Below, piece by piece: positions 11,509-32,847 of a stretch of 64,000 nt of DNA (positions within the stretch are counted from its first letter, which is position 1; every line of letters starts with the position of its first letter). The notes under the pieces are model-generated. The model ran no database searches, was not told where the DNA came from, and worked only from the letters and a program-made list of their open reading frames with translations. The position numbers and the translations under genes are program-made. The stretch covers positions 1-64,000 of the forward strand of contig JAHBUR010000023.1 in NCBI GenBank assembly GCA_019637975.1, read 5' to 3'. The DNA comes from Bacteroidota bacterium (GTDB taxonomy: Bacteria > Bacteroidota > Ignavibacteria > UBA10030 > UBA6906).

Positions 11509-14500
11509 TCATCTCAATAAGAGGAGCTTCTTTGTTACTGTGAAACTACCCGAAGTCAACCGGTACAGATAGACACCACTGGCAAGCCCGGACGCATCGA
11601 ATGCCACTTCGTAATGTCCCGGCTGCTTCACTTCGTTCACCAGCGTTGCCACCTCTCGGCCAAGGAGATCGTACACGCGTAGGGACGTATGGCCATACGT
11701 TCCGGCAGGAATCTTGAATTGAATGGTTGTTGTTGGATTAAACGGGTTCGGATAATTCTGCGCGAGATGAAACTCTGTCGGAACCGCACGTCGATCAACC
11801 GGTTCATTCACATCGGTGAGAATCGTTGTTCCTGTTTCGAATTCCGTCAATGATGCCGCGGGCCCGTTCTGGTTTGCAGCGGGATCGAGGAACCCCGTAG
11901 CAGCAATCACGGCAATTTCCCCCGCCTGTCCCGATAGGTCAATCGGGAATGAGCCGATGAGCTGGTTGTTGTCCGTTCTTCTCATCTCAAAGACATAACT
12001 CCCCGGCGCCAGGCCGACGCTCGAGTCGGAGACGTCGCTGTAGCGGAGGTTCTGCACCAGCGTTCCACCTCCCTGAAGAGAGATATTGAGGGCAGGCGCA
12101 TCGGTGATGGCATGAAGGAAGATGACGCGCGCAAGATGATCGCCGCCCGCCTCGATGGGAAGCGGCAAAGCAAGAATGCGGAATTCGGTCGATCGTGCGT
12201 CCGGGTTCGGCGCAAAATCAAATGGATCATCCACGCCGAGGAGAGCAATCAGGCCGGGACTTGCTGCGCTCAGATACAAGCTATCTGTCACCAAGATCGG
12301 ATTAAACTCCTGCCCTTCACGATACACCTCGGCTCTCATGTACTCCAGAAACGGGAGGCTGTCCACCGCTACGGATTGACCGATGCCGAGACTGTCGAAG
12401 AGAACCCGCTCTTCGGTGCCTTGCGGAGAGGTAACAAGAGGGCTGCACCTTGGCAGATGGGCCACCATGCGTACCCCTCTTCCTGCATTACCGCCTCCGG
12501 ATGACCTGACGCCACTCGATGAGGCGACAACCGTAAGCCGCGGCTGCCATATGTAGCGCCAGCGGGCAATACCGTTCGCCGGAGGGACATTATGCCCCGC
12601 CCGTGTGAAGTTGCCTCCAACATACACGTTCTCGGCAGCTTCATAACATGAGGCTAATGAGAGCAGTGCATAGACAGGGCCATCGGTACCATTCAGGTTC
12701 ACATCCGGGATATCCGGCCTTCCGTTCCAATACTGACGAAGATGTTGTCCCGGGAACTGATCCGTAACGAACAATCCAACGCGATTGATGAGCCGGGTGT
12801 TGCCGTTTTCATATCTTCCGAAAGTGAAGTTTCCGCCGACGAAGGCTCCGTTGTAGTGTGTGTGGTAGATTCGTGCAATTGCATGAACCGGTCCGGTGGT
12901 GCCCCCCTGAAGGATGTTCCACTGGTTGCTCGGATCATTCCAAAAGGAAAGGTAGGGAGTGTTGACCGTTGAGCCGTCCTCGTTCGTCGAGACGGTGAAA
13001 TCGCCCCCCACCCAGACCCGCGGGAAGTGCCCCCCGATATGGTACGCGAGCGCCCGCACGGTGCCATTTACTCCTTGCCCGACAGCCGCTCCCCACGAGT
13101 TTGCCTGGATATTCCAGCGGGCAATGTTGCGAGTGGGGGTTTGCGCTCCGGATTCAGAGACTACGCCATCGAAGGAACCGCCGAGATACATATCGTACTG
13201 CGGGGTGTAGAAATATCCGTGCCTCGCGATTACGCGGACCTCCTTGTTTCCTCCATATACACCTTGGCCAACAAGACGCATATCCCAGTTCCCCACGGAA
13301 CGGTAGAATTCAACCAGAGAGTTGGCTCGTATCCTTGTCTGACCAAAGGCCGCTGTATCGAATGCACCTCCGACGAAGAGTTGCGGTATTCCTCCCAGGA
13401 CCGAATACAGTTCAAGAGCATACACCGTCCCAACGACGCCCCCATCAAACGGTTCCCATTCTTCGGTCGTGTGATCCCACTTCGCGATACTCATTGCCGG
13501 GACGGTTGTTCCATTGGCGTTGTACGCAACAGTGAAGTTCCCCCCGACAAACACACTCCCCCTGTCGGCTGCGATGGCGTACACCGGCCCGTTGACGCCT
13601 CCTCCGAGAGAAGCCCAGTTGACTCCATCGTAGAAGGCAATGTTGTTTGCCGGTATTCCGGCGACAGCATTGAACGTTCCCCCCATATACAAATACTCCC
13701 TGCGGTCGGCAAGCGGCCGCTCTGCGGTTGCGGCAAGCGCCAACACCGTTCCTGCCACCCCCGAGAAGTTGAGCAGGGGCGTCCACCCTGTACCGTGTAT
13801 CCATTGGGCATTATTGATGATGTCATGTGTTGTGTTGGAGGAGGGATCGAAAATCCTGTTATACAATCCGCCGACGTACAAACCTTCAGCGGTTCGTCCT
13901 GTTCTTCCCGCCAAAGTTCTCACAATCTCCCCCGAGAACCTCCCGATCTTTTCCCATTGTCCCGGCTGAATCCGGCGCGCAACAACGTTCCCCGGAGGGT
14001 TGTTATCGCGGTAATAGGCACAAACGATGTCGCTTCCATCAATCGTCATTTGATAGAAGTCTGTTGTTCCGGGTCCCAAGGGAAGCCCGGCGGATTCATT
14101 GAACCATTGAGTGCCATTCCAACGGACAAGCGGCCCGTTGGCGGTTGTATTATCATTGTTGCGGGCGGTCGTAAAGACGCCTCCCACGAGTAACTCATTT
14201 GCTGCATTCATTGCAAGGCTCGTGACATACGGGCCGAATATGAACGGGGCATTGGAGACTCCCTGCCCGAGCGGCTGCCACTGAGTGCCGGTCCACAATG
14301 CAATGTGGTTGACGGTTACTTGTCCGCCGCCGGTGTCTATTGCGGTGAGAAAATTCCCTCCGACATAAACACCATGAACAGAAGCCGTCATTACGCCGAC
14401 ATAGTTGAAGGCGCCGGAAACTCCTTGCCCGACAGGTTGCCACGTGTTGTTTGTGGTGCTCCAGAACCCGATTCGCGGCAAGGTAACTTGCCCGCCGCCC

Positions 14501-15021
14501 GGGTTCGTTGCAATCATTGTTCCACCGCCGACATATACATCACCGTTGAACGCGGCAATACAGTTGATTATAGCGGCGATATCGATCCCCCCGCCGAGGG
14601 CTTCCCATGCATTCGTTTGTATATTCCAACGTGCAATGCGACTAACGGGGATAGGAGGTCCACCCGGAGTATTGTACACGGTCAGGAAGGTTCCGGCGAC
14701 ATACACATTGCCCAAACCATCAACCTCGATGGCGAACGGATCAACGTTCGACGTTCCGTTCTCGAACCGGTCACCGAGTGTGACCCAGTTTCCACCGTTC
14801 CAACGAACAACGCGCATCACACGACGCCCGTCAAAGTTCACTCTTCCCGCGACATAGATTCCGCCGTTCGGGGCGACGGTGGAAACCGTTGCGCCTAAAT
14901 CAAGGGGTCCGCTCTGTTGAACCCCGATTGCCCTCCAATCCGAGGCCGCCGGCGCGGGCGGGGGCCACTGAGCATACGTGTACGAAGCGAGTAAAAAAGT
15001 AAGCGCGAATGTGTACTTCAT
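11509..15021 (-). CDS. Large T9SS-secreted propeller protein with DUF4397-like domain
   Basis: 1170 residues with a signal peptide ([15 protein letters not shown]) and more than twelve repeats of the kind VYVGGNFT...IARWN...[13 protein letters not shown], which should form one or more beta-propellers over roughly residues 25-880. A domain resembling DUF4397 follows ([20 protein letters not shown], then [10 protein letters not shown]) at about residues 960-1060, then a type A sorting domain. The ATG is preceded by AGGAGG. It is the first T9SS gene after kinase/regulator pair 1. A candidate regulator site (15084-15101) lies 62 nt upstream. The sorting domain loop carries a near-palindromic insertion (11679-11706). 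Confidence 0.85.
11679..11706. repeat. Near-palindromic insertion in a T9SS sorting domain
   Basis: GGGACGTATGG and CCATACGTTCC form an inverted repeat with one mismatch (11682-11703). It encodes GTYGHTS at the same loop position as the palindrome at 8690. Confidence 0.75.
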
Positions 15022-15140: not shown

Positions 15141-15821
15141 TTAGATTTTGGCAGGAGGGGAGATTATGCCTTGCGCCAGCCCTTTTGCAACCGCCTCGCC
15201 GCGGCTGTGCGCTTGCAGCTTTTCGTAGATCTTGCGTATGCGCGACACGACTCCATCAACCGAAAGGAAAAGTTGTTGCGCAATCGTCGCATAGGATTTC
15301 CCTTCGGCGAGGAGGATTAACACCTCGCGCTCTCTGTCGGTGAGTGTATGTTGGGGGGATTGGTGAACCGCGGGCGGTTTCTGAAACGTTGCAATGACTT
15401 TGCGGGCAATGTTGGGAGACATCGGCGAACCGCCTGCTGCCGCGTCCTTGATGGCTTTGACGAGTTCCGGCGGGCTGACTTCTTTCAGCAAATACCCTGT
15501 GGCGCCATTACACAGAGCATCGAAGATTTTCTGATCGTCTTCATAAACGGTGCAGATGATCACGGCTGCATCGGAGTTCGCTTCCTTCAGCTTCAGAACT
15601 CCTTCGATCCCCGATATGCCGGGCAAGCCGATATCCATCAGCACGACTTCGGAATCGGTGAAGGCATCGTGGGCGAACGCTTCTTCGCAGCTTTCAAATG
15701 CGCCGATGATTCTGATACCGCTGTCCGCACGAAGCGTTGCAGTCCACCCCTCGCGGACGAAGCGATTGTCTTCGACGATCGACACCCAAATCGGGTTCTG
15801 TGTAGTAGTTGGTGATTTCAT
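15141..15821 (-). CDS. NarL/LuxR-type response regulator 1
   Basis: 226 residues: receiver domain (about 12-128) with acidic pair VEDN, phospho-Asp in LMDIGLPG, the Thr of ICTVYEDD and the Lys of YLLKEV; C-terminal LuxR-type HTH (about 158-220; LTDREREVLILLAEG, then IAQQLFLSVDGVVSRI). The output domain predicts a DNA-binding transcription regulator. Its gene follows the sensor kinase gene 15954-18998 by 132 nt on the same strand, and the pair should be cognate. Regulators 2 and 3 in this window are its paralogues. Confidence 0.9.
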   Translation of the reverse strand: MKSPTTTQNPIWVSIVEDNRFVREGWTATLRADSGIRIIGAFESCEEAFAHDAFTDSEVVLMDIGLPGISGIEGVLKLKEANSDAAVIICTVYEDDQKIFDALCNGATGYLLKEVSPPELVKAIKDAAAGGSPMSPNIARKVIATFQKPPAVHQSPQHTLTDREREVLILLAEGKSYATIAQQLFLSVDGVVSRIRKIYEKLQAHSRGEAVAKGLAQGIISPPAKI

Positions 15822-19080: not shown

Positions 19081-21282
19081 TCAGCGAAGCAGGAGCATCC
19101 TGCGAGTCTGTGCATGATCTCCGGCCTGGATGCGGTAGAGATACACACCCGACGAGACCATCCTGTTGTTCCAGTCCCTCCCGTCCCACACAACCGAATG
19201 TCTCCCCGAGACCTGGACCTCATCCACCAGAGCGCGTATCTCCTGTCCGAGCAGCGTGTAGATCTTCAACGTTACTCTCGCACTGGTTGGCAGGTCGTAC
19301 TCAATGGTGGTGGCGGGGTTGAACGGATTGGGGTAATTCTGGTTCAGTCGAGGGTGATGCGGGATATGCGGCACACGCCCCTCTTCAACCCAAACCAACC
19401 CGCCTGTTGTCGTGCGAAGTATCGTCCTCTGGCCGACTATGATGCCATTGCTTCCACCGGAAAAATGCACGTCTTCCAGATCGTATGTGCTGAGCGGCGG
19501 GTGTTGAATCCACGTGTTGCCGAGATTTGTCGTGTACAAAATCACTCCGCTGAGGCCTACTGCCGTCGCGCTTGAATCATCCGAGAAAGCAACCGAGTTG
19601 AGCTGACGTGTGGTTCCACTATTCAACGCTTCCCAACTCAGACCGGCGTTGCTTGTACGGAGAATTCTGCCGCCAACCCCCACCGCCAATCCGGCTCCGG
19701 TACTGTTGAACGCAAGTCCCACAAGTGCTTGCGTGATGCCGGAAGGGATTGGGTCCAAAGTGTTGCCGCCGTCTGTCGTTCGGTAGATGAGGCCGGAGCC
19801 GGTTGCGCCGCCTACTATGACTCCTGTGCTGCTGTTGAAGAAGTGGACATTGAGAAGTTGGGGTGCCTGACCGGTGTGTAACGTGACCCACTCGGCGCCG
19901 CCATTTGTCGTGCGCTGCACGGTTCGGTTGTTACCTACGATCCATCCAAGGTTATCATCGAGAAAGAAGACAGCATTGTTGAAGGAAACCGCACCATTTT
20001 GAGGGAACCACGTTGTTCCACCGTCGGTGGTCCGTGTGATAACGCTGGGAGAGCCCACTGCTGTACCGATATCAGGGCTGGAGAAGTACACGTCCCAGAG
20101 GCCGGCAATAATACCGGTGCCGCTGGTCTGATTCTGCCAGATGGTGCCGCCATCGGTAGACCGAAGAATCACGCCCGGATTCTGAGTCAGTCCACCGACA
20201 ATTACGCCAGTGCTCACATCGGGAAAATGAACAGCCGCCAGCGTGGTGTTCACTGGCACGCCCTGAGTCTGCGAAACCCAGCTGGCACCTGCATTCGTCG
20301 TGCGATAGATGGCTTGATTGGTGGCGAATGAACCTCCAACGATGACGCCGGTCCCGCCGCTGCCAACCCACAAATCATTGAAATCTTCCGACGTAAAGGG
20401 AGTTTCAGATGTCCAACTCCCTCCACCATTTGTTGTTTGCAGAATCCTTCCAGTATTTCCCACCATCCATCCATTGTCAGCGTCTATGAAACGGATGGAT
20501 TCCAGTCTGGAACCAAGACCCCCGGTCACAGTGAACCACTCCGCTCCTGCGTTGGTGGTGCGCCGAATGGTGCCGCTGTTTCCAGCCACAATACCGCTGT
20601 CGGCGTTGATGAAGTATGTGCAGAGGAGAGCGTTGGTTGTACCGCTGGTTTGCGGGTTCCAAATCGCGCCACCGTCAGTGGTTCTGAGAATCGTTCCGCC
20701 TTCCCCGGTTACCGTTCCGGTGTTTGCATCGACAAAGAAAACAGATGTGAGCACACGGATGGATCCGCTAACCTGGCTGTTCCACGTAACGCCGCCGTCC
20801 GTTGTGCGGAGGATGATGCCGGTCTCGATTCCCAGGGTACCCCCGACCGCAGTCCCATTATTTGCGTCGGAAAAGTAAACACCGTTGAGCCGTCCAATGG
20901 TGCCTGTTGGCCGGACTATCCAGCTTGCGCCCCCGTTCGTCGAGTGAAGGATCGTTCCGGAGTCTCCGACCGCTACCCTGTTGGCAGCGTCAACGCAGAA
21001 CACATCCGTGAGATGACGCCACGTTGCGCCATACTGAGGCATCCAAGTGATTCCCCCGTTGTTGGTGTTGAGGATCGTGCCGAACTCTCCAACCGCTGTC
21101 CCACTGTAGGCGTCAGCAAACGAGACACCTTTGAGGACGCTTCCTGTCGGAAGCGGATTCTGCCAGAACCAGCCTGATTGGGCCATCCCGGTGCATGTGG
21201 AAATGATGAGCAAAGTTGCCGATCGAAGAATCAGAATGCACATTTTCCTATGGAAGAAAGAAGGAGGTTCGGAGTGCTGCAT
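19081..21282 (-). CDS. T9SS-secreted YCF48-like propeller protein
   Basis: 733 residues: signal peptide (hydrophobic core TLLIISTCTGMAQ), about 13 YCF48-like repeats of ~46 residues (GTILNTNNGGITWMPQ, GTILRTTDGGAIWNPQTSG) and a C-terminal type A sorting domain ([20 protein letters not shown], then a Lys-Ile-Tyr-Thr strand and SGVYLYRIQ). Start 21282 is preferred over the frame's first ATG at 21315 because a GAAAG-type site precedes it; ATG 21243 is also possible. It is driven by the strong promoter at 21356-21384 and ends at the 19038 hairpin, so it appears to be its own transcript. Confidence 0.84.
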   Translation of the reverse strand: MQHSEPPSFFHRKMCILILRSATLLIISTCTGMAQSGWFWQNPLPTGSVLKGVSFADAYSGTAVGEFGTILNTNNGGITWMPQYGATWRHLTDVFCVDAANRVAVGDSGTILHSTNGGASWIVRPTGTIGRLNGVYFSDANNGTAVGGTLGIETGIILRTTDGGVTWNSQVSGSIRVLTSVFFVDANTGTVTGEGGTILRTTDGGAIWNPQTSGTTNALLCTYFINADSGIVAGNSGTIRRTTNAGAEWFTVTGGLGSRLESIRFIDADNGWMVGNTGRILQTTNGGGSWTSETPFTSEDFNDLWVGSGGTGVIVGGSFATNQAIYRTTNAGASWVSQTQGVPVNTTLAAVHFPDVSTGVIVGGLTQNPGVILRSTDGGTIWQNQTSGTGIIAGLWDVYFSSPDIGTAVGSPSVITRTTDGGTTWFPQNGAVSFNNAVFFLDDNLGWIVGNNRTVQRTTNGGAEWVTLHTGQAPQLLNVHFFNSSTGVIVGGATGSGLIYRTTDGGNTLDPIPSGITQALVGLAFNSTGAGLAVGVGGRILRTSNAGLSWEALNSGTTRQLNSVAFSDDSSATAVGLSGVILYTTNLGNTWIQHPPLSTYDLEDVHFSGGSNGIIVGQRTILRTTTGGLVWVEEGRVPHIPHHPRLNQNYPNPFNPATTIEYDLPTSARVTLKIYTLLGQEIRALVDEVQVSGRHSVVWDGRDWNNRMVSSGVYLYRIQAGDHAQTRRMLLLR

Positions 21283-21355
21283 GGCGTTCTTTCGGATGTC
21301 TTGGAACAATACCATAATTATCGGGAATCGAAAAGTGTGCTATCGAGTTTCGGAC

Positions 21356-21478: not shown

Positions 21479-23656
21479 TCAGCGCAGCAGAATGAGCCGC
21501 TTTGTCTGCGTGAACTCGCCTTCCTGGAAACGGTAGAAGTACACGCCGCTTGCCAACCCTCCGGCATCCCACGTCACCTCATGGCTCCCGGGTTGCATCA
21601 CCTCGTTCACCAGCGTCGTGACTTCACGGCCAAGCAGATCGTACACCCGAAGTGACACGACATGTCCCGCCCCTACGGAAGCAGGCACGGAGAATCGAAT
21701 TCTAGTGGACGGGTTGAAGGGGTTCGGATAGTTTTGCTCAAGCTTGAATTCGTCCGGGAGATCGGATGTGGTCTGCCCCACAGCGGTGATGATCGGGCTT
21801 GTTGTCCGGTAGATGCCTGCTCCCCCTGCGCCGTACAGCCTCCCATCCGGGGCAATGGCAAGGCGATCGAGGATCGTATTGAGCAAGCCGTCGCTGTGTG
21901 TGGTCCACACTCCTCCTTCATTGGTGGATTTATAGAGTCCGGACGGAGTCCCAAGCAGCAACACTCCGCCCGTTGAAACAAGAATCCTGTATTGAACTCC
22001 GACCGGAGTGCCAGCTACCACGGTCCAACTTGCGCCGTCGTCCGTAGATCGGAAGATACCGCCCAAGGTGTGCGAATAAATGGTACCATTCGTGAGCTGC
22101 ACGAACCTGCCGATAGATACGCTGCCGAAAGGAGAAGAACCGGAGTTGGCCCATGTTCCACCACTCGGCAATCTATTGACACCACTGTTGAAGGTTCCGG
22201 CCAGTACGGTCCCGGCCGATGTTACAAAAATTGATGTGATGTTTCCGCCCCCTGAAAGAGAAGTCCAGGTTTGCCCGTTGTTGACTGACCTGACAGCTCC
22301 ACCCGACCCCCCGGAGACGAAGTCGCCATTCGGAGCAACCGCAATGCCGGTGCTACCCGATGTGGAAGTCTTTGTCCAATTCGCGCCGTTGTCGGAGGAA
22401 GTGAAAAGCCCTTCTCCCATTCCCGCGACGATAATTCCGGGAGCCTTGCCGGCAATGGCATTGACAATGGCGATGGTTGCGGAACCGGTGATCGGAAGAG
22501 TTGCCCTCGTAAAGGTGGAGCCATTGTCATGAGAATAATCTATCCGGCCTCGACCAAGCCCGTTGAAAATCCCTCCGGTTGGCGTTACGGTCAATGAGTT
22601 CGAAAGCGTGTTGTTGATTCCTGTGTTGGCAGGATTCCATGTCGCCCCCGCATCGGTGGACTTCTGGATACCTCCGAATATGCCGCCGACAACGTCTGAT
22701 CCGGATGTGAGAAACGAACCGTTGGCAGTTACCATGAAGTCGGTGGCAGACCCGAATGGATTTCCGATGGATGTCCAACCCGTGCCGCCGGCGGCGGCGC
22801 GAAATGTTCCACCGGTAGTGGACGCAAGAATCTGACCTCCTGATGTTTCGGCTATGTGATTGACTGTTTGGGAAGAGGCCATGGGAATGGAATCGGTTTG
22901 CGTCCAGTTCGCCGCGCCGTCATTACTCACGTACACACGATTGCGGATCCCGACATAAATTGCCCCACCGGAGCTGACGAACACCGGCTTGACATTCGTG
23001 TTTGCCAGCAGGCCGTTGCTCATTCTCGTCCAGGAATCACCATTGTTCACTGACTTGTACACGCCGACCTCCGTATTCACGTTGCCGGAATTCACCGATG
23101 CGTACAGGTTCCCCGATGCATCGGATGAAATGGCCGACACGTTCCGAAAGTAGGTGAACGGGCCGACAACATAGCTTGGCAAACCAGTGCTTCGTTGCAG
23201 CCATGTCGCTCCCCCATCGGTCGAACGATGGACGCCGCCATCGGCAGCTTCTGCACCCACGAACAAGAGTCCGCTCGAAGCCAAATGGAAATTTGTTCTG
23301 CCGATCGGGCTTCCAGCGACCTGTTCCCAACTCTGCCCGGCGTTGCTGGAACGATACATTGCTCCGCACAATGCTATCGCAGTTCCTCCACCCACAATTA
23401 CAATGTCTGAAACCGTTGTATTCTGTGGAAGCCCGCTCCATCGAGGAACCCACGAGACCCCTTGATTTGTGGAGACGTAGATACCACCGCCATTCGGCGC
23501 TCCCGCGTACCATCTTCCGTTTGCATTGTCTTCCGCAAGGCATTGAACATAGAACGTTCCGTCCGGCCCAGGTATCCGCTCCCAAAACGGTTGGGCGTGT
23601 CCTTTGATGGAAGCGAAGGTCAGACCCAAAACAACAATTGTAGCCATTGCTTTCAT
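21479..23656 (-). CDS. T9SS-secreted BNR/sialidase-like propeller protein
   Basis: 725 residues with a signal peptide (TIVVLGLTFASIKGHAQ) and about 14 BNR-like repeats (GGIYVSTNQGVSWVPRWSG; GGVHRSTDGGATWLQRSTG). There is no complete sialidase active site, so it is a propeller of unknown ligand rather than an enzyme. The C-terminal type A sorting domain is clear ([20 protein letters not shown], then SGVYFYRFQ). GGAGAT precedes the ATG. It is the first T9SS gene after regulator 2, and a candidate regulator-2 site lies 82 nt upstream. The sorting-domain loop has an insertion at 21652-21677. Confidence 0.84.
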   Translation of the reverse strand: MKAMATIVVLGLTFASIKGHAQPFWERIPGPDGTFYVQCLAEDNANGRWYAGAPNGGGIYVSTNQGVSWVPRWSGLPQNTTVSDIVIVGGGTAIALCGAMYRSSNAGQSWEQVAGSPIGRTNFHLASSGLLFVGAEAADGGVHRSTDGGATWLQRSTGLPSYVVGPFTYFRNVSAISSDASGNLYASVNSGNVNTEVGVYKSVNNGDSWTRMSNGLLANTNVKPVFVSSGGAIYVGIRNRVYVSNDGAANWTQTDSIPMASSQTVNHIAETSGGQILASTTGGTFRAAAGGTGWTSIGNPFGSATDFMVTANGSFLTSGSDVVGGIFGGIQKSTDAGATWNPANTGINNTLSNSLTVTPTGGIFNGLGRGRIDYSHDNGSTFTRATLPITGSATIAIVNAIAGKAPGIIVAGMGEGLFTSSDNGANWTKTSTSGSTGIAVAPNGDFVSGGSGGAVRSVNNGQTWTSLSGGGNITSIFVTSAGTVLAGTFNSGVNRLPSGGTWANSGSSPFGSVSIGRFVQLTNGTIYSHTLGGIFRSTDDGASWTVVAGTPVGVQYRILVSTGGVLLLGTPSGLYKSTNEGGVWTTHSDGLLNTILDRLAIAPDGRLYGAGGAGIYRTTSPIITAVGQTTSDLPDEFKLEQNYPNPFNPSTRIRFSVPASVGAGHVVSLRVYDLLGREVTTLVNEVMQPGSHEVTWDAGGLASGVYFYRFQEGEFTQTKRLILLR
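21652..21677. repeat. Repeat insertion in a T9SS sorting domain
   Basis: Contains GACA-CGAC-ATGTC with a GCCCCTACGG end like other members of the GTAGGGRC family. It encodes part of ASVGAGHVVS, the extended loop before the LRVYD strand. Confidence 0.55.
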
Positions 23657-23738
23657 GACAATCTCCTTACTTGAACTACTTTGTTAGAAGGTGATGGGGA
23701 CAATGTTTGTGAAAACTACGGCGGAAGAAGAGGCGGTA

Positions 23739-23757
23739 CAATACCCCATGTGGGGGT
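23739..23757. promoter_or_regulatory. Candidate regulator-2 binding site upstream of T9SS gene
   Basis: CAATACCCCATGTGGGGG contains the inverted repeat CCCCA-TG-TGGGG, 82 nt upstream of the ATG at 23656. It matches the site at 24489 in 16 of 18 bases. Confidence 0.6.
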
Positions 23758-23782
23758 TTCGCCTGTCAACGAGAGGAGAGGG

Positions 23783-24454
23783 TCAGACGAGTTTTTTTTC
23801 AATTGCAACACGGACCGCCAGTGCGCGGGAGTGAACGTGAAGCTTGCGGTAGATATTTTTGATGTAGGATTTTGCGGTGTGGGGACTGATGAACATCTTT
23901 TTGGCAACGGAGGTGTAGGTCTCGCCTTCAACGAGTCCTTGCAGCAACTCAAGCTCGCGGTCTGTAAGAAGTGATTTCACATCATCAGGTGGTTCGGCAG
24001 AAGTCGTTCGATCAACATTCCTCCCCCGGATAAACGAAAGTACTGTCCGGGCAATGGACTGCGACATGGGCGCGCCGCCGTTTGCCAGCTCCTTGATTGC
24101 CTGTTCTATGTTGTTGAGGGATTCATCCTTGAGCAGATAGCCCGATGCACCGGCTTGAATAGATTGGAAAATTTTCGACTCATCCTCGAATACCGTCACC
24201 ATCATCACGTCAATGTCGGGGAAGATTTCCTTCAATTCGTTTGTCGTCTCAATTCCGGATTTTCTCGGCAGCTCGATATCCATCAGCACAATGCGGGGAA
24301 GTTTGGAGGGAGGAAGCCGTTTGAGCCGGCGCAACACTTCCTCCCCGGAAGCGCATGAGAAAGCCAAACGGATGTCCGGAAAGAGTTTGAACTGCTCTTC
24401 AAACCGCTTCCTCAGCGTCGGGTTGTCTTCGACAAGTGCAACAAGGATTGACAT
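23783..24454 (-). CDS. NarL/LuxR-type response regulator 2
   Basis: 223 residues. The receiver domain has VEDN acidic residues, phospho-Asp in IVLMDIELPRKSG, a Thr in MVTVFEDE and the Lys in YLLKDES. The LuxR HTH at the C terminus has LTDRELELLQGLVEGETYTS, then VAKKMFISPHTAKSYIKNIY. Gene order kinase 2 -> regulator 2 (64-nt gap) marks a cognate pair. The HTH recognition helix (SPHTAKSYI) differs clearly from that of regulator 1 (SVDGVVSRI), matching the different candidate operator. Confidence 0.9.
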   Translation of the reverse strand: MSILVALVEDNPTLRKRFEEQFKLFPDIRLAFSCASGEEVLRRLKRLPPSKLPRIVLMDIELPRKSGIETTNELKEIFPDIDVMMVTVFEDESKIFQSIQAGASGYLLKDESLNNIEQAIKELANGGAPMSQSIARTVLSFIRGRNVDRTTSAEPPDDVKSLLTDRELELLQGLVEGETYTSVAKKMFISPHTAKSYIKNIYRKLHVHSRALAVRVAIEKKLV

Positions 24455-24488
24455 GGCAAACTCAAATAACAGAGAACCTCTTCAACTT

Positions 24489-24507
24489 CAATACCCCATT
24501 CGGGGGG
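24489..24507. promoter_or_regulatory. Candidate autoregulatory site of regulator 2
   Basis: CAATACCCCATTCGGGGG, 34 nt upstream of the regulator start and inside the 64-nt kinase-regulator gap. It is the partner of the site at 23739. Confidence 0.6.
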
Positions 24508-24518
24508 ATGTTGGCAAC

Positions 24519-27500
24519 TCATGAGCTAACGCGCTGAACGGGTATTGTAACTTCGATGCTGGTTCCCTTTCCCGCTTCGCTTGTGAGAGCAAACTGACCT
24601 CCCACCTCTTCAGCCCTGGTCTGCATGTTCATAAGTCCCCGGCCCCTGCCCGCGCCTTCCGAGCACTTCCCATTGCCGTCGTCTCTAACGATAAGTTGTA
24701 CAGAGGCATCAATCACTGTGAGGTCAACCCATACGTTTTTTGCACGCGCATGCTTCACGCTGTTGGTTACTGCCTCCTGTGCAATCCGCAGCAGGTTCAA
24801 GGATTGAATGGGTGTAAGGACAAGTTCCGCCGCTGCGTCGGCTGTAAAGTGCAGCTTCGGCCTCTTCCGGTACTTGACGATATTGCCGACATGCTGCTCA
24901 AGCGCGGGTACGAATTTTTGCCACGGCATCTCGTTTGTCGAAAGCGCCCATATCGTTTCCCGCAACTGCCCGATGCCGGCGCGTGCATCATCGTGCAGGG
25001 AAGAGAGCAGCTTGCCGGTTTGTGTTGTGCCCGACTTTGCATACTTGCCCGCCAACTCAAGACCCGATACGAGTCCGACCAGACTTGAACCAACGCTATC
25101 GTGCAACTCTCGCGAAATCCGATCCCGTTCGCGTTGGATGGCCTTCTGGCGTTCCAGTTCTTCGACCTTCTTCTTGAGTCTTCGGATAGAAAAGAAGCGC
25201 ACCGCTCCGATTAATGTTACGGCAATCAGGATCCCCGCCAGAAATCTGAACCACGCCGTCATCCAAAACGGCGGCGCGAGTACAATCTGCAGTGCTGTTC
25301 CGTGATCATTCCATGTACCGTCGTTGTTCGATGCTTTCACCCGAAAAACATAGTCTCCCGGCTCCAGGTTGCTGAAGCTCGCGTACCTCCGGTTGCCTGT
25401 ATACACCCAGTCGGCGTGGATTCCCTCCATCATATACGCGTATCGGTTCTTCTCCGGCTCGCGGTAATCAAGAGCGGTGAATTCGAAGGAGAGGAAATTC
25501 TCATCATACCGCAGCCGCACCTGCCGCTTGAACGAAATGGACGTGTCCAGCGGGACTTCCTTCTCGAACACCTTGAAGGATGAGATGACGACGGGAGGCG
25601 GTTTCGTGTTCATCCGAATGCTGTCCGGATGAAAGTGGATGAACCCGTTCACGCCGCCGAAATACAACCGTCCGTCAGCGCCTTTCGACGCGGCGTTGAC
25701 GTTGAACTCGGTAATGGCAAGATGAGTGCCGCTGTGGAAGTTGGTAAAAGTTCGCGTCGAGGGATTGAATCGGGAAAGTCCCCCTTGCGTGCTGAGCCAT
25801 ATATCTCCGGCGTTATCCTCGACGATTGCTTGGACCACCTTGTGAAGAAGCCCCGCCTGCTCATCGAAACACTCGAACGCTCCTGTGGCGCGATTGCCGG
25901 ATGAAAGCAATGCAAGTCCACCCAACGTTCCAATCCAGATGTTGCCGGCCCGGTCTTCGAATGTAGAGGTAATGCGTTCATTGCAGGTCGCAGAGCGGAA
26001 CTGAACAAATGTGCCCGATGCGGGAATCAGTTTGTTGAGACCTGCGCCGAAGGTCCCTATCCACACTTCTTTTTGATGGCTCCGTTCGCTGATAACGAGG
26101 GAGAAGACATCTTCCTGACTCATGCTGTGAGGATCGGATAGGCCGACAGGGTACGTGTGAAATCGCCCAATGTCGAGAGAATCCAAATGGATTCGGGAGA
26201 GTCCCCCTGTCATGCCGAGCCAGAGATAGCCATCGCCGTCATCGCGGATCACACGCATGAGGTTGGACGGGAGAGTGAAAGGCCATGCCGAATCTTTGGA
26301 AAATCGCGTGAAGGATTCGCGCCTCGCGTCAGCACGAAACAGTCCGCCCGGATGTGCCCACAAACCGACCCACAACGTTCCACGCCGATCTTCATGAAGA
26401 GCTTTCACATAAGGATCAGGAAGCTTCCCGGTGTCGTTGCGGCCAACCGGATATTGGTGGAAGTGGAACAGCAATGAGTCTGCCGGTTCTCGCGAGCGAT
26501 GCAAACCTCCTTTTCTTGTGCCGACCCAAAGAGTGCGGCTGCGGTCTTCTAGGATTGCGGTAACATCGGCATCGCGCAAGCTGCTCCGATCATGCGGATC
26601 GTAGCCGACGAAACGAAATGGATAAGAGTTGCGGAGCGTCTTGTCTATGCCGCTCGTGAGAAATCCGAGCCACGTTACTCCGGAACGATCGACAAGAATC
26701 GAAGTAATCCAATTGCTTCCCGGGCCGTCGGGGTGTGCTGGATTGTGCGCATGTTGGGTGATGCGGCGGCGGTGGATATCCACCTCAAACAATCCTTTCG
26801 TTGTTGTCCCGACCCAAAGTACTCCTGGCTCCACCTCCGTCATTGTCCAGACCGGCTCTTTTTGCAGGGAAGAGTTGGACAAGAATTGCTCTCCTCCTGA
26901 AAGAAACGTGTTTCTCTCGTAATCCAGCAGTCGCACTCCTTCCTCAGTCCCCACCCACACAATCCCGGGCATACCCGTGACTTCAGCGAAGGAAAACACG
27001 GTTCCTTCAGTTCGCCACGTACCGAGGATTGTTGCCGACTCGCCAGGTCCATGTTGAGCGTGCCTCATTCGAGTGATACTCTTCGCGCCGCCTGCCCACA
27101 GGTTTCCTCGGGAATCCTCGAACAGACTCTGCACTCCTCCAGGAACAAGCATGGCGCGGTTGGCTGCATGATCAAGAAGTTGCTGTGCGGAAAGATGCAA
27201 TGAGTCGGCAGGAAGGCGGAGAAGTTTGCCGTTTTGAAATCCGATCCAGATTCCGCCACTCTGTTCACGAAGTAAAATCGCCGCAGGGGGGACTTGGGCA
27301 GATCGAAATTGCGAATCGATACGAAGGTGCTCGAAGGAATCAGTAACAGGATCGTAGACATCCACTTGACCGGGAAGGAGGCTAACCCACAACCGTTGGC
27401 GCGTGTCCTCTGCAAGGCCGACAACATAATTATCCGCGAGAGATGTTGAATCTGAAGGATCGTGGCTGTACGGGCTGAAGGAGTGCCCGTCATACCTGTT

Positions 27501-27686
27501 CAAGCCATATTGCGTTCCGATCCAGAGAAATCCTCTGCGATCTTGGAGGAGGCACAACGCACTGTTCTGTGATAACCCTTGTGCCGTGCCGAAATGATGG
27601 AACCTGAGCGGTTGCGCAGAAGCGTCGCTCGTGAAGAGGTAAACGGCACTCAGCGCGAGTACAATTCGGGAAAGGTGATCAGACAT
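24519..27686 (-). CDS. Propeller-type sensor histidine kinase 2
   Basis: About 1055 residues from the ATG at 27686, which gives a signal peptide (IVLALSAVYLFTSDASAQ). The frame is open much further upstream but that extension covers relic DNA. The body has Reg_prop repeats (LLQDRRGFLWIGTQYGLNRY and others), a Y_Y_Y domain (ALDYREPEKNRYAYMMEGI, then EPGDYVFRVKASNNDG), one membrane helix (FRFLAGILIAVTLIGAV), a HisKA_3 domain (phospho-His about 860 in SRELHDSVGS) and a HATPase (AQEAVTNSVKHARA, then DDGNGK and GRGLMNMQ). No strong Shine-Dalgarno is seen. It should phosphorylate regulator 2. Confidence 0.88.
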   Translation of the reverse strand: MSDHLSRIVLALSAVYLFTSDASAQPLRFHHFGTAQGLSQNSALCLLQDRRGFLWIGTQYGLNRYDGHSFSPYSHDPSDSTSLADNYVVGLAEDTRQRLWVSLLPGQVDVYDPVTDSFEHLRIDSQFRSAQVPPAAILLREQSGGIWIGFQNGKLLRLPADSLHLSAQQLLDHAANRAMLVPGGVQSLFEDSRGNLWAGGAKSITRMRHAQHGPGESATILGTWRTEGTVFSFAEVTGMPGIVWVGTEEGVRLLDYERNTFLSGGEQFLSNSSLQKEPVWTMTEVEPGVLWVGTTTKGLFEVDIHRRRITQHAHNPAHPDGPGSNWITSILVDRSGVTWLGFLTSGIDKTLRNSYPFRFVGYDPHDRSSLRDADVTAILEDRSRTLWVGTRKGGLHRSREPADSLLFHFHQYPVGRNDTGKLPDPYVKALHEDRRGTLWVGLWAHPGGLFRADARRESFTRFSKDSAWPFTLPSNLMRVIRDDGDGYLWLGMTGGLSRIHLDSLDIGRFHTYPVGLSDPHSMSQEDVFSLVISERSHQKEVWIGTFGAGLNKLIPASGTFVQFRSATCNERITSTFEDRAGNIWIGTLGGLALLSSGNRATGAFECFDEQAGLLHKVVQAIVEDNAGDIWLSTQGGLSRFNPSTRTFTNFHSGTHLAITEFNVNAASKGADGRLYFGGVNGFIHFHPDSIRMNTKPPPVVISSFKVFEKEVPLDTSISFKRQVRLRYDENFLSFEFTALDYREPEKNRYAYMMEGIHADWVYTGNRRYASFSNLEPGDYVFRVKASNNDGTWNDHGTALQIVLAPPFWMTAWFRFLAGILIAVTLIGAVRFFSIRRLKKKVEELERQKAIQRERDRISRELHDSVGSSLVGLVSGLELAGKYAKSGTTQTGKLLSSLHDDARAGIGQLRETIWALSTNEMPWQKFVPALEQHVGNIVKYRKRPKLHFTADAAAELVLTPIQSLNLLRIAQEAVTNSVKHARAKNVWVDLTVIDASVQLIVRDDGNGKCSEGAGRGRGLMNMQTRAEEVGGQFALTSEAGKGTSIEVTIPVQRVSS

Positions 27687-27743
27687 GGGAAAGAACAAAT
27701 CGTATGGAATTTGGATCAAGTTCGTGAGAATGGGATGAAAGTT

Positions 27744-27756
27744 CAATAGTGGGGGG
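27744..27756. promoter_or_regulatory. Possible degenerate regulator-2 half-site
   Basis: CAATA followed directly by GTGGGGGG, 57 nt upstream of kinase 2. It reads like the regulator-2 motif with the CCCCAT part deleted. Weak evidence. Confidence 0.25.
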
Positions 27757-27864
27757 AGCGCCCTTGCCGGGTCCGCTCGGCGGTTGGTTCGCAATCTCTC
27801 CCTCATTTGGGAATTTACTGCCTCCAACTGACCAGATGAAATCTCCGGATTGTGATGCTTAATC

Positions 27865-27970
27865 GGAAGGAGCCGAGCAGGGCAACAAGGATCAAGGATC
27901 GAGTGGTGGGCATGATGATGGAATGTAGAGGAGATGGGTGAGAAAATCCAACAAAAGTCCCGACAAGGGA
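27865..27970 (-). pseudogene. Relic 2: leader and first codons of a kinase paralogue
   Basis: The minus strand reads through a leader similar to that of kinase 1 (CTCTACATTCCATCATC before the ATG at 27913), then MPTTRSLILVALLGSF, matching the kinase 1 signal peptide MRPNRSLIVVALFGA. Similarity ends after ~17 codons. Confidence 0.65.
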
Positions 27971-28004
27971 TGGTTCGGATTTTTGGAAGCTCTGTTTTGG
28001 GAGC

Positions 28005-28162
28005 CAGCGAAATCCGTATTTGTCCAGGAGAAAGGAGTAGGTGGTTCCGCGTCACGAACCGTCGACCGGGGACAGCTGCTGGAATATCACGTTCTGCTGC
28101 TGCGACACAATGACGCTCGCGCCAAAAAGAGCGACAAGTGTCAAGGAACGGTGGAAACGCAT
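28005..28162 (-). pseudogene. Relic 1: truncated 5' end of a kinase paralogue
   Basis: From the ATG at 28162 the minus strand encodes MRFHRSLTLVALFGASVIVS then QQQNVIFQQLSPVDGS, a TGA stop, and RGTTYSFLLDKYGFRWL. Kinase 1 has MRPNRSLIVVALFGASVVAA, QQENIIFQQLSTADGL and SRGTIYSILQDKQGFLWL at the same place. The stop replaces one codon, and similarity is lost near 28005. No kinase body follows in frame. It lies directly after the T9SS gene 28258-30381 and its hairpin, the same junction as between the 19081 gene and kinase 1. Confidence 0.85.
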
Positions 28163-28201
28163 TGTGGTAAATTGTAGGGGAGATTAGGGAGAATCTCAAT
28201 A

Positions 28202-28234
28202 GAAAGTCCCCGGACTTTTCGACCCGGGACTTTC
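28202..28234 (-). terminator. Hairpin after T9SS gene, copy of the 19038 hairpin
   Basis: GAAAGTCCC and GGGACTTTC arms with a 15-nt loop, 24 nt after the stop at 28258. Sequence and setting match the hairpin at 19038-19069. Confidence 0.68.
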
Positions 28235-28257
28235 CAAGAACGTGTTCCTGATGATGG

Positions 28258-30381
28258 TTAGCGCAGAAGAAGAAGGCGCTTTGACTGCATGAACTCGCCC
28301 GCTTGCAAGCGGTAGAAATACACGCCACTCGCCATCCCCGTCGCATCCCACGTTACCTCGTAGCTACCCGTCCCCTTCAGTTCATTCACCAGCGTTGCGA
28401 CTTCGCGGCCGAGGATATCGTACACCTGTAGAGAGACACGACCGTGCGTCCCTACAGGAATGGAAAACCTGATGTTTGTGCTCGGGTTGAACGGGTTGGG
28501 ATAGTTCTGGTGAAGCATGAATTCCGCCGGAAATCTAGTGCCGCCGCCTTCACGGACATCAGTGATCACCTCTCCAACAGGTCGCCGCCACACGCCGTGG
28601 CCGACAGTAGCGACATACAGATGTGTCCCAGTCGAACGGACGCCTCGCAGGCGAAGCGTCGGCAATCCCGCATTCGACGCAAGCCATGTCTGCCCATTGT
28701 TCGTCGACACGTACATGCCCGAATCTCTCGACGAAGCGAAGAGCGTGGCCGTATCTTGTATCGCGATGAAATCCACTTCCACTCCCGTCATTCCCGTGTT
28801 GGATGGCGACCACGCAACGCCGAAGTTCGTTGAGCGATAGACACCATTTGTTGTCCCTGCAAACATGGTGTTGCCAATGAACCGCATGTGACGCGGGGTT
28901 ACACCGGTACCGAGAACAGTCGAAAACCAATTCGTACCGTTGTTGGTTGTTCGTAAGACGGCCCCTTCAGAAGCTCCGATGAATACTGTTCCGGCACCGC
29001 CAATGGCAACACAGGTGGCGGCAAACGTGGTGAACCCGCTCATGATCTGTGTCCAGGATTCCCCGTCGTCGGTGGATCGGTAGACACCGTCAGTTACGGC
29101 TTGCGTCATAAAGACGTCCGTTGTTCCACGGGTTGCTATGCCCGTGCAAGGAAAAGGCGGACTTCCGAACGAGCGTGACCAACTTGTGCCGTTGTTCGAG
29201 GATTTGTACAAACCATCGTCTTCAGTGCCGGCAAACCATGATGAACCTCTGGTGGCAAACTGAAGCACGCTGGGAATGGAATAGACGCTTTCAAAGCCTG
29301 AATTCCGCGCCGACCAGGTGAACCCGCTGTCGCTTGAGACGAAGAACCCTCCGCCATACGTTCCCACCTGCCACTCTGCCCCGCCGGATGTGAACGAGAG
29401 GTTTGTCACCCACGATTTTGCAAGTCCGCCGGACGACCTTATCCAGGTGGTACCGGCGTTCGACGAGCGGAAAATGCCGCCGCCCCACGTTCCCACAACA
29501 ACATCGCTGCCTGCCGTGGCAATTGATTTTGTCCATCTCGGAATGAGGCCGTCGTTGCGCAGGGTCCAGGAGGTTCCATTATTTGTCGAGACGTAGACAC
29601 CCGCAGTCCACGGCGACGTGCCCACTTGAAACACCGCGGGCACATAGAGCGCGGTTGGGGTTACCAGGAGGTCTTGAATTCCCCTTGGCAGACCGGTGAT
29701 CTGCGACGAGGTCCAACTCGTACCGTTGTCCGTGGATCGTGCAACCCGTGCCGCGCCTGCCCGTTCATACGCGGCGTACAGTGTTGTGCCGTCACTCTTA
29801 AGAATCCTGACGGACGTTGGGAGTGGTTCGGTCCATGCAAGTGACCACGTTGCACCGTTATTTGTAGAGCGGTACACAGCACTGTCATTGAGGCCGGCAA
29901 ACATCGCCCCACCGTGGGCTATTGCCACTATTGGAGAAAACGGGAGATTCCCGATGATATTCGTCCATGAAGCTCCGCCATCCGTCGTCCAGAATAGTCC
30001 GTTTGTTGATGGAGCAAACACCTGTGTGCCGCTTGCGTACACTCTGTTGAATGGTGCACTGAAGGCCTGAGTCCACGTCATTCCGTCATCGCTCGAACGA
30101 TAAATCCCGGCTGCAGAGCCTCCGCCAAAGGTAGAGGCAAACAACATCCCCTGAGCCGCGGCAAGTTGGATGGGAAACGCCGGGACTGGCCCCCGTCGGT
30201 TCCATGTCATCCCGTTGTCGGAAGAAGTTAAGATGTCGCCATCGGCTGCCGCACAAGCGATGTAACTTCCGGCATTGGTGATTGCGACAATGTCGCCCGC
30301 CTCGGGGCCTCCCATCGGAGTCCATTGGGCTTTCAGCGAAAAAGGAACAAGCAAGATGAGGATGAGTAAGATGCGTTTCAT
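28258..30381 (-). CDS. T9SS-secreted BNR-like propeller protein
   Basis: 707 residues with signal peptide ILLILILLVPFSLKAQ and about 14 BNR-type repeats (GDILTSSDNGMTWNRRG, GIYRSSDDGMTWTQAF, GGFFVSSDSGFTWSARNSG). The type A sorting domain ([20 protein letters not shown], then SGVYFYRLQ) has a repeat insertion in its loop (28425-28458). The ATG at 30381 is preceded by AGGAGA at 5 nt, which overrules a longer frame. It starts 34 nt after the upstream T9SS gene, so the two form one transcription unit downstream of regulator 3. Confidence 0.84.
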   Translation of the reverse strand: MKRILLILILLVPFSLKAQWTPMGGPEAGDIVAITNAGSYIACAAADGDILTSSDNGMTWNRRGPVPAFPIQLAAAQGMLFASTFGGGSAAGIYRSSDDGMTWTQAFSAPFNRVYASGTQVFAPSTNGLFWTTDGGASWTNIIGNLPFSPIVAIAHGGAMFAGLNDSAVYRSTNNGATWSLAWTEPLPTSVRILKSDGTTLYAAYERAGAARVARSTDNGTSWTSSQITGLPRGIQDLLVTPTALYVPAVFQVGTSPWTAGVYVSTNNGTSWTLRNDGLIPRWTKSIATAGSDVVVGTWGGGIFRSSNAGTTWIRSSGGLAKSWVTNLSFTSGGAEWQVGTYGGGFFVSSDSGFTWSARNSGFESVYSIPSVLQFATRGSSWFAGTEDDGLYKSSNNGTSWSRSFGSPPFPCTGIATRGTTDVFMTQAVTDGVYRSTDDGESWTQIMSGFTTFAATCVAIGGAGTVFIGASEGAVLRTTNNGTNWFSTVLGTGVTPRHMRFIGNTMFAGTTNGVYRSTNFGVAWSPSNTGMTGVEVDFIAIQDTATLFASSRDSGMYVSTNNGQTWLASNAGLPTLRLRGVRSTGTHLYVATVGHGVWRRPVGEVITDVREGGGTRFPAEFMLHQNYPNPFNPSTNIRFSIPVGTHGRVSLQVYDILGREVATLVNELKGTGSYEVTWDATGMASGVYFYRLQAGEFMQSKRLLLLR
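28425..28458. repeat. Repeat insertion in a T9SS sorting domain
   Basis: CCTGTAG and CTACAGG outer arms around an imperfect AGACACG...TGCGTCC core. It encodes VGTHGRVSLQ at the same loop as the palindromes at 8690 and 11679. Confidence 0.7.
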
Positions 30382-30415: not shown

Positions 30416-31939
30416 CTATCGGACGAGCATGAGTTTCCTGGTGGCAGAAGAAGCCCCTGTCTGCATTCGGTACAGGTACACTCCGCTCGCAAGATCACGG
30501 GCATCGAAGTCAACTGCGTGCGTGCCCGGATTCATTTGTTGAGAGACGAGCGTGCGCACTTCCATTCCGAGCAGATCGTACAGCTTAAGCGACACGAACC
30601 CGGCTTGCGGGATGGAGAATTTGATGGTGGTGCTTGGATTGAAAGGATTAGGATAGTTCTGCATTAGCAAAAACCCTTTTGGAACCTCATCAGGATTCTC
30701 CCTGACATTCAACGGCGATGCGGACTGACTATCATAGAAGACCTTGCGAGTTGCTCCATCCAAACCAACCCAAATAACTCCGACATCTCCACCGACACTC
30801 GGATACTCGATGATTCTGGGGAGATAGTATCTTGATGACCACTGAGGCGGATGGTCGCTGATACGGCGGCGACCGCGCACGGTTGTGGGCGTAGTCTGTT
30901 CAAGATAAAGATACATAAGCCGATCGTTTGCCGTGGCGGCGCTATCGGCAACGTAGATGAAATCCACGCCATCAGAATAGTGGGCAGCATCAAACCAATA
31001 CTCGCCGATACTCGTTCCAGCAAGAGTGAACGCGGGAGCAAAAGTCACACCGAGGTCCGTGCTCACGCGGCACCGGATGTTCGAGTCCTCGCCGATGAGC
31101 GGTTCCCGCTGTATGAAGAACCATACAACATTCCCCGACCGGACACATTGATGTTCCCGTCTCCTGTACGTCGTGTCCTCGTCAATAATCCTGTTATCAA
31201 TGGTTTCAAGGAGACTGTTGTTTTCGCGCAAGCGCCGCAAGGCGATCATTGAGCGGGACGTATCAGTACTAACCGGACTGTAATAACTGACGAAGAGAGT
31301 ATCCCGACGACCGAAGACAGTGTTGATGTATGCACGCGGATGGGCACCGTCTTGTGAAAATACTTGCGCGCCCCAAATGGCACCGTAGTCGGTACTGCGA
31401 AAAGTAAATATCTGGTTGGTCTCCGGATTGTGGACGAAGGCGTAGAAATTGCCGTTGGCCGATGCGACCACATCGAAATCTTGCATGGGGGGAACAACAC
31501 CCGTAACGTTTCTGATAATCGCGGTCTCCACATTCCAGCAGTACAGGTCTCCACCGCTCAGAAAGAACAGGTAGAGCGAGTCATTGGCTCCCCGTATCAT
31601 CTTGGTGTTGCTGACAAGGAGAGAAGGAGAAACAGACGATGCTGTTGACCACGTAACACCAAAATTGGTCGTACGGTAGGTGACGATCCCGCGGTTTGGA
31701 ATAAGCCCTGTATCGGGGACGGCAATGAACGCGGTCCCATTTGCCCTTGCCGCACCAGACGAGCGACCAAGGGGCTCGCGTTGAGTTATTGCGAAATCAC
31801 CCCCCCATCGCGGGCTTATTGGCGGCAGAAACTCATGCGGCTCTGGAACGACCTTGGGCTCAAGAGAAGATTCTTGTGAATGTGCTGATGCAACCAAGAC
31901 AGAAATCAGGAGGAAATGGAGACAGTAGGAGAAACGCAT
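30416..31939 (-). CDS. T9SS-secreted sialidase-like propeller protein
   Basis: 507 residues: signal peptide (HFLLISVLVASAHSQ), a six-bladed sialidase-like body with Asp-box-like motifs (TFRSTDYGAIWG, VSTDLGVTFAPAF) and a type A sorting domain ([20 protein letters not shown], then SGVYLYRMQ). The Arg triad and Tyr/Glu of true sialidases are not evident, so enzyme activity is not claimed. It is the first gene after regulator 3; the candidate regulator-3 site at 32045-32066 is 106 nt upstream of the ATG. The sorting domain loop has the ordinary short form (SIPQAGFVSLKLYD), useful as the uninserted reference. Confidence 0.82.
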   Translation of the reverse strand: MRFSYCLHFLLISVLVASAHSQESSLEPKVVPEPHEFLPPISPRWGGDFAITQREPLGRSSGAARANGTAFIAVPDTGLIPNRGIVTYRTTNFGVTWSTASSVSPSLLVSNTKMIRGANDSLYLFFLSGGDLYCWNVETAIIRNVTGVVPPMQDFDVVASANGNFYAFVHNPETNQIFTFRSTDYGAIWGAQVFSQDGAHPRAYINTVFGRRDTLFVSYYSPVSTDTSRSMIALRRLRENNSLLETIDNRIIDEDTTYRRREHQCVRSGNVVWFFIQREPLIGEDSNIRCRVSTDLGVTFAPAFTLAGTSIGEYWFDAAHYSDGVDFIYVADSAATANDRLMYLYLEQTTPTTVRGRRRISDHPPQWSSRYYLPRIIEYPSVGGDVGVIWVGLDGATRKVFYDSQSASPLNVRENPDEVPKGFLLMQNYPNPFNPSTTIKFSIPQAGFVSLKLYDLLGMEVRTLVSQQMNPGTHAVDFDARDLASGVYLYRMQTGASSATRKLMLVR

Positions 31940-32044: not shown

Positions 32045-32066
32045 CAATTACGCAAATGCGTGTATT
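32045..32066. promoter_or_regulatory. Candidate regulator-3 binding site upstream of T9SS operon
   Basis: CAATTACGCAAATGCGTGTA contains ACGCA-AA-TGCGT, a perfect inverted repeat. Its first ten bases are identical to those at 32827. Confidence 0.55.
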
Positions 32067-32826: not shown

Positions 32827-32847
32827 CAATTACGCATTTACGTTATT
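32827..32847. promoter_or_regulatory. Candidate autoregulatory site of regulator 3
   Basis: CAATTACGCATTTACGTTAT, 32 nt upstream of the regulator start and overlapping the kinase 3 stop codon. It shares the 10-mer CAATTACGCA plus a following ACGT/GCGT half with the site at 32045. Confidence 0.5.

Follow-up and report, generated by a model that had tools for sequence, protein, structure and literature searches.

The gene of regulator 2, a response regulator encoded in the 64,000-nucleotide stretch of Bacteroidota DNA analysed here (the window), is flanked by two copies of a short motif, one before its own start codon and one before the adjacent gene for a propeller protein that is a substrate of the type IX secretion system (T9SS). 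The locus raises the question of what these boxes do and which protein reads them. With a probability of about 0.83, we take them to be operators of regulator 2, which on a signal from its partner kinase would activate both its own gene and the adjacent T9SS propeller gene. The preliminary description had predicted that the regulator acts on its own gene as well as on the secreted propeller, and at the level of sequence this prediction is well supported by conservation, promoter geometry, and covariation with the recognition helix.

The paired boxes and their relatives

The motif has two exact matches on the + strand, CAATACCCCATGTGGGGG before the T9SS gene and CAATACCCCATTCGGGGG before regulator 2 (Table 1). 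The copies share 16 of their 18 bases; they lie 34 nt before the ATG of regulator 2 (24454) and 82 nt before that of the T9SS gene (23656), just as first described. The core had been called an inverted repeat; it is one, but an imperfect one in the window copies (CCCCCnnATGGGGT), the fuller palindrome TACCYCnnnnGGGGTA being found in homologues. A degenerate half copy claimed upstream of kinase 2 (27744) proved to be a partial string match only: GCGCTCCCCCCACT plus ATTG has no palindromic core, the -7 candidate GAACTTGA is poor (3/6 positions), and we rejected it.

Since the module genes are all on the - strand and the boxes were read out on the + strand, the reverse complement is the biologically useful reading. 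On the coding strand, regulator 2 is preceded by CCCCC-GAAT-GGGGT-ATTG and the T9SS gene by CCCCC-ACAT-GGGGT-ATTG. Each box has a palindromic core of 14 bp; next to it stands ATTG, and approximately 20 nt on there is a TAnnTTTG-like element. TA is kept in the proximal heptamer only, the distal TA of the homologues being absent.

Table 1. Features of the modules and related loci, with the proposed assignments.
Feature	Position	Strand	Description
Proposed operator, regulator-2 promoter	24489..24506	-	Core CCCCCGAATGGGGT 24493-24506 + ATTG 24489-24492 (putative -33); conserved in homologues
Putative -7 element, regulator 2	24461..24468	-	TATTTGAG, 20 nt past ATTG; weak, 4/6 positions
Proposed operator, T9SS-gene promoter	23739..23756	-	Core CCCCCACATGGGGT 23743-23756 + ATTG 23739-23742
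Putative -7 element, T9SS gene	23711..23718	-	TAGTTTTC, 20 nt past ATTG; 5/6 positions
Regulator 2, NarL-type response regulator	23783..24454	-	Pfam Response_reg (PF00072) + GerE/LuxR HTH (PF00196)
Kinase 2	24519..27685	-	Pfam Reg_prop propeller + Y_Y_Y + HisKA_3 + HATPase
Proposed target, secreted BNR/Vps10-type propeller, T9SS substrate	21479..23656	-	Pfam, Por_Secre_tail
Second T9SS-tail propeller gene	19081..21315	-	Pfam; without own box
Proposed private operator of module 3, before T9SS gene 30416-31939	32045..32062	-	CACGCATTTGCGTA + ATTG, N20, TATTTTTT
Related box of module 3, 50 nt before regulator 3	~32827-32844		AACGTAAATGCGTA + ATTG
Lipoprotein-gene boxes	L097 7333-7351 (G000:C25:47332); L176; L177		RR2-type box

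The second T9SS-tail propeller gene is possibly co-transcribed with the target. The longest open reading frame of kinase 2 extends to 28346 and overlaps the upstream T9SS gene (27685-28346); translation more likely starts at the ATG near 27685.

When up to three mismatches were allowed, the window contained four matches against 0.54 expected, a number reached in none of 100 shuffles. In a scan of the whole genome (4.25 Mb), the 17-base form had no exact match other than the window pair. Most of the weak matches were inside genes or without a -7 element, and we therefore claim no large regulon.

The proposal had been made to depend on conservation of the motif upstream of related regulator genes, and such conservation was found among orthologous and paralogous regulators of the regulator 2 (RR2) type. 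The box stands 50-63 nt upstream of the regulator in RR2 and in all six of its closest homologues, which come from the same genome and from related ones (58-66% identity), and in the homologues it takes the form (A/T)TACCYCnnnnGGGGTATTG or a near variant. In three other loci (G002, G028, and G032; the G002 genome belongs to the same genus), a box precedes the adjacent gene too. An RR2-type box was also present in three species before a gene that is not linked to the module and encodes a 258-residue lipoprotein without a Pfam match, the proteins of G000 and G002 being only 42% identical. This box, TACCnC-GGAT/CTTT-GGGGTATTG, has A at base pair 1 and is followed after 19 nt by a strong -7 element (TAAATTTG or TAGATTTA); an RR2-type regulator probably controls the lipoprotein gene in trans.

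Promoter geometry and the direction of control

Bacteroides promoters of the sigma-ABfr type have a -7 element TAnnTTTG and a -33 element TTTG (PMC7366714). By sequence, the module promoters appear to have this same -7/-33 pattern, with a -33 TTG and a -7 TAnnTTTG at fixed spacing. They differ in the sharp 20-nt spacing after TTG and in that the -33 element abuts the operator.

The survey covered the stretches around 83 regulators of G000 and its relatives. In the surveyed promoters, ATTG comes after the box and, approximately 20 nt on, TAnnTT(T/C/G). A box-plus-promoter score of at least 7 was found for 45% of the 83 regulator promoters and 32% of the following genes, compared with 5% for other genes and 2% for shuffled sequences. 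When boxes were chosen on palindrome and ATTG alone, with the -7 element ignored, the TA of the -7 element had a spacing of exactly 20 nt in 61% of the regulator promoters and 57% of the next-gene promoters, other spacings mostly giving 0-17%. Among the non-module genes of the surveyed loci, TTG-N20-TAnnTT occurred at 6.2% with a spacing of 20 and at approximately 0.8% with others; it appears to be the general promoter of the lineage.

Because the module promoters equal the Bacteroides -7/-33 pattern, the palindrome adjoins the -33 element and is centred near -43, which we infer to be a class II activator position. The same operators could instead serve regulator 2 as a repressor, with negative autoregulation and a propeller gene silenced until a signal brings relief; many promoter-near NarL sites repress, and activation is not provable from position alone. 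Across the modules, however, the palindrome is immediately upstream of -33 and clear of the -7 element and the start site, where a class II activator typically sits, and we consider repression unlikely. Both effects are known from 7-2-7 sites of NarL in E. coli: frdA is repressed, and napF and yeaR, whose sites are in the region from -38 to -49, are activated (PMC4549865).

Private operators and regulator residue 196

The layout of module 2 recurs: a kinase was directly upstream in 67 of 77 regulators, and a T9SS-tail gene was within the next two genes in 49 of 77. In these sister modules the layout is common and the core differs (GACTCAnnTGAGTC, CACGCATTTGCGTA, and AGAACATTTGTTCT are examples). 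For 26 modules, both boxes were scored independently over 10 outer positions. The regulator box and the neighbour box of the same module agreed in 8.2 of 10 positions, as compared with 4.4 when the pairing was shuffled (z 10.8, 0/10,000), and there was no such agreement for the upstream flanks (0.32), the spacers (0.25), or the central four bases (0.42). That the core agrees while flanks and spacers differ indicates that the operator itself has been kept, rather than a duplicated stretch. The window pair is a selected one. Its motif is not peculiar to module 2 but belongs to a family of private operators, as one address among many. A chance pair, or the copying of an intergenic stretch as can happen to neighbouring intergenic regions, is refuted by the unlike flanks around like cores, the shuffle counts, and the conservation across genera, and its probability is negligible.

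By the criteria used, module 1 (15141-15821, 11509-15021) lacked a clear ATTG-type box at regulator 1; upstream of this regulator there is a CACAT/ATGTG-like repeat, and before the next gene a candidate, TCACATCTTCTTGTgttg. Just downstream of another NarL-type regulator (L091, G000:C10:105225), there is a palindrome, CCACCCCCAAGGGTGGTATTG, with ATTG on the strand opposite the regulator.

A recognisable box was found for 71 of 138 surveyed regulators, about half, and every variable residue of these 71 was scanned for covariation with the operator base pairs. Residue 196 (regulator 2 numbering) ranked first, with z values of 15.0 for base pair 1 and 12.1 for base pair 2, the next value being 9.9. 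By alignment it corresponds to V189, a DNA-contacting position in the recognition helix of NarL; the recognition helix of regulator 2, compared with the NarL, VraR, and DevR structures, is HTAKSYIK. At equal overall identity, a comparison that controls phylogenetic dependence in part only, the match at base pair 1 was 51-80% with the same residue 196 and 16-26% with a different one. Asparagine goes with G:C at base pair 1 (13/16), threonine with A:T (20/25), and phenylalanine with T:A (4/4); serine leans to C:G (C at position 1 in 9/15), and alanine is mixed. A rule for alanine set in advance failed out of sample; exact predictions of base pair 1 were correct overall in 8 of 18 cases out of sample, 3.7 being expected (p 0.009). 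Regulator 2 has serine in place of the threonine of its homologues, and both of its boxes show C instead of the A in the homologues' boxes, a single case that fits the serine tendency.

As the operator covaries with the recognition helix, the box is tied to the regulator rather than to another factor, and regulator 2 very probably binds both boxes. The actual or shared binder could be another factor or the C5 regulator, which is a close paralogue (64% identity); its own box (ACCGCCTTTGGGGT) has the same proximal half, and its threonine at residue 196 suits the A of the lipoprotein box better than the serine of regulator 2. Against this, both window boxes depart alike, with C at base pair 1, in step with the T-to-S change in regulator 2 and with the general S-to-C tendency, and matching within the module is the rule; this alternative, like repression, appears unlikely. 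The lipoprotein box may belong to the C5 paralogue.

The coding strand could form a CCCC/GGGG stem, and the boxes lie between genes of an apparent operon, as would suit an RNA hairpin acting as attenuator, terminator, or processing site. Yet there is no T run, the constant ATTG and the -7 element follow at a fixed 20 nt, the box covaries with DNA-contacting regulator residues, and it is present also before the unlinked lipoprotein gene. On the fixed promoter spacing and the regulator covariation we rejected the hairpin, which is very improbable.

We return to control by regulator 2, a NarL-type protein paired with the adjacent Reg_prop histidine kinase. A dimer of the regulator, as predicted from the inverted repeat and the covariation with the recognition helix, would bind the 14-16-bp palindrome, whose heptamers would stand in the 7-2-7 arrangement of NarL and which immediately adjoins the -33 ATTG of a promoter of the Bacteroidota type (ATTG-N20-TAnnTTTG). 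Bound regulator 2, presumably in a phosphorylation-dependent manner, would most likely contact sigma or RNA polymerase as a class II activator, so that the signal of kinase 2 would turn on the regulator's own gene (positive autoregulation) and the adjacent gene for the T9SS-secreted propeller.

Many sister modules in related bacteria have the same layout and a different address that tracks one regulator residue. Regulators sampled outside the order were mostly without a box, with a few clear exceptions (L261, L263, and L268); among the sampled top hits the arrangement is rare there, yet present. It is likely that sense-and-secrete modules, which join a Reg_prop kinase, a NarL-type regulator, and a T9SS propeller, form a series across the order. 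Each module would be insulated through an operator of its own, the promoter being otherwise fixed, and residue 196 would largely set the outermost base pair (N for G:C, T for A:T, S towards C:G, F for T:A).

Known systems and implications

With its N-terminal receiver and C-terminal GerE HTH, regulator 2 has the build of the NarL/FixJ (LuxR-type) family. Inverted heptamers like TACYYMT-N2-AKRRGTA are found in its homologues (TACCCCCAATGGGGTA and others), the window copies keeping the proximal TA only, and the RR2-family box equals the engineered high-affinity 7-2-7 site of E. coli NarL, TACCCCTAAAGGGGTA (PMC4549865), so that the DNA-reading step would be ordinary NarL biochemistry. Unlike NarL, a global regulator with many site arrangements, the modules have a Reg_prop propeller sensor kinase, a Bacteroidota-type promoter, and a local T9SS-substrate target.

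The hybrid two-component systems (HTCS) of Bacteroides are local regulators of polysaccharide-utilisation loci, each with a private motif (PMC3878776). Like the modules, they have a propeller-type sensor, occur as many paralogues, and each act on a local target. HTCS, however, is one polypeptide with an AraC-type HTH that uses direct repeats, whereas module 2 has no single protein joining kinase, receiver, and AraC HTH: the modules have a separate histidine kinase and GerE-type regulator, an inverted repeat, and T9SS propellers as targets. PorX/PorY/SigP similarly links two-component control to type IX secretion (PMC4800418). That system acts on secretion machinery genes via an ECF sigma factor, whereas the modules are predicted to put single substrates under local NarL-type regulators; regulator 2 is not of the PorX type but has a GerE HTH, and its proposed target is a secreted substrate. 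We found no description of the module and operator arrangement in the open-access literature.

The results provide an operator model and a promoter model for a poorly studied lineage, whose nearest named relatives are Ignavibacteriae groundwater MAGs, and would link individual secreted T9SS propellers to dedicated sensors. They bear on how cross-talk at the DNA level is avoided in bacteria that have dozens of paralogous two-component systems, a matter usually studied system by system. Tens of sister modules with a fixed layout and changing operators form a natural data set for predicting regulator-promoter pairs and, if the order-wide series is as proposed, would be a natural orthogonal set for reading the DNA recognition code of the NarL family.
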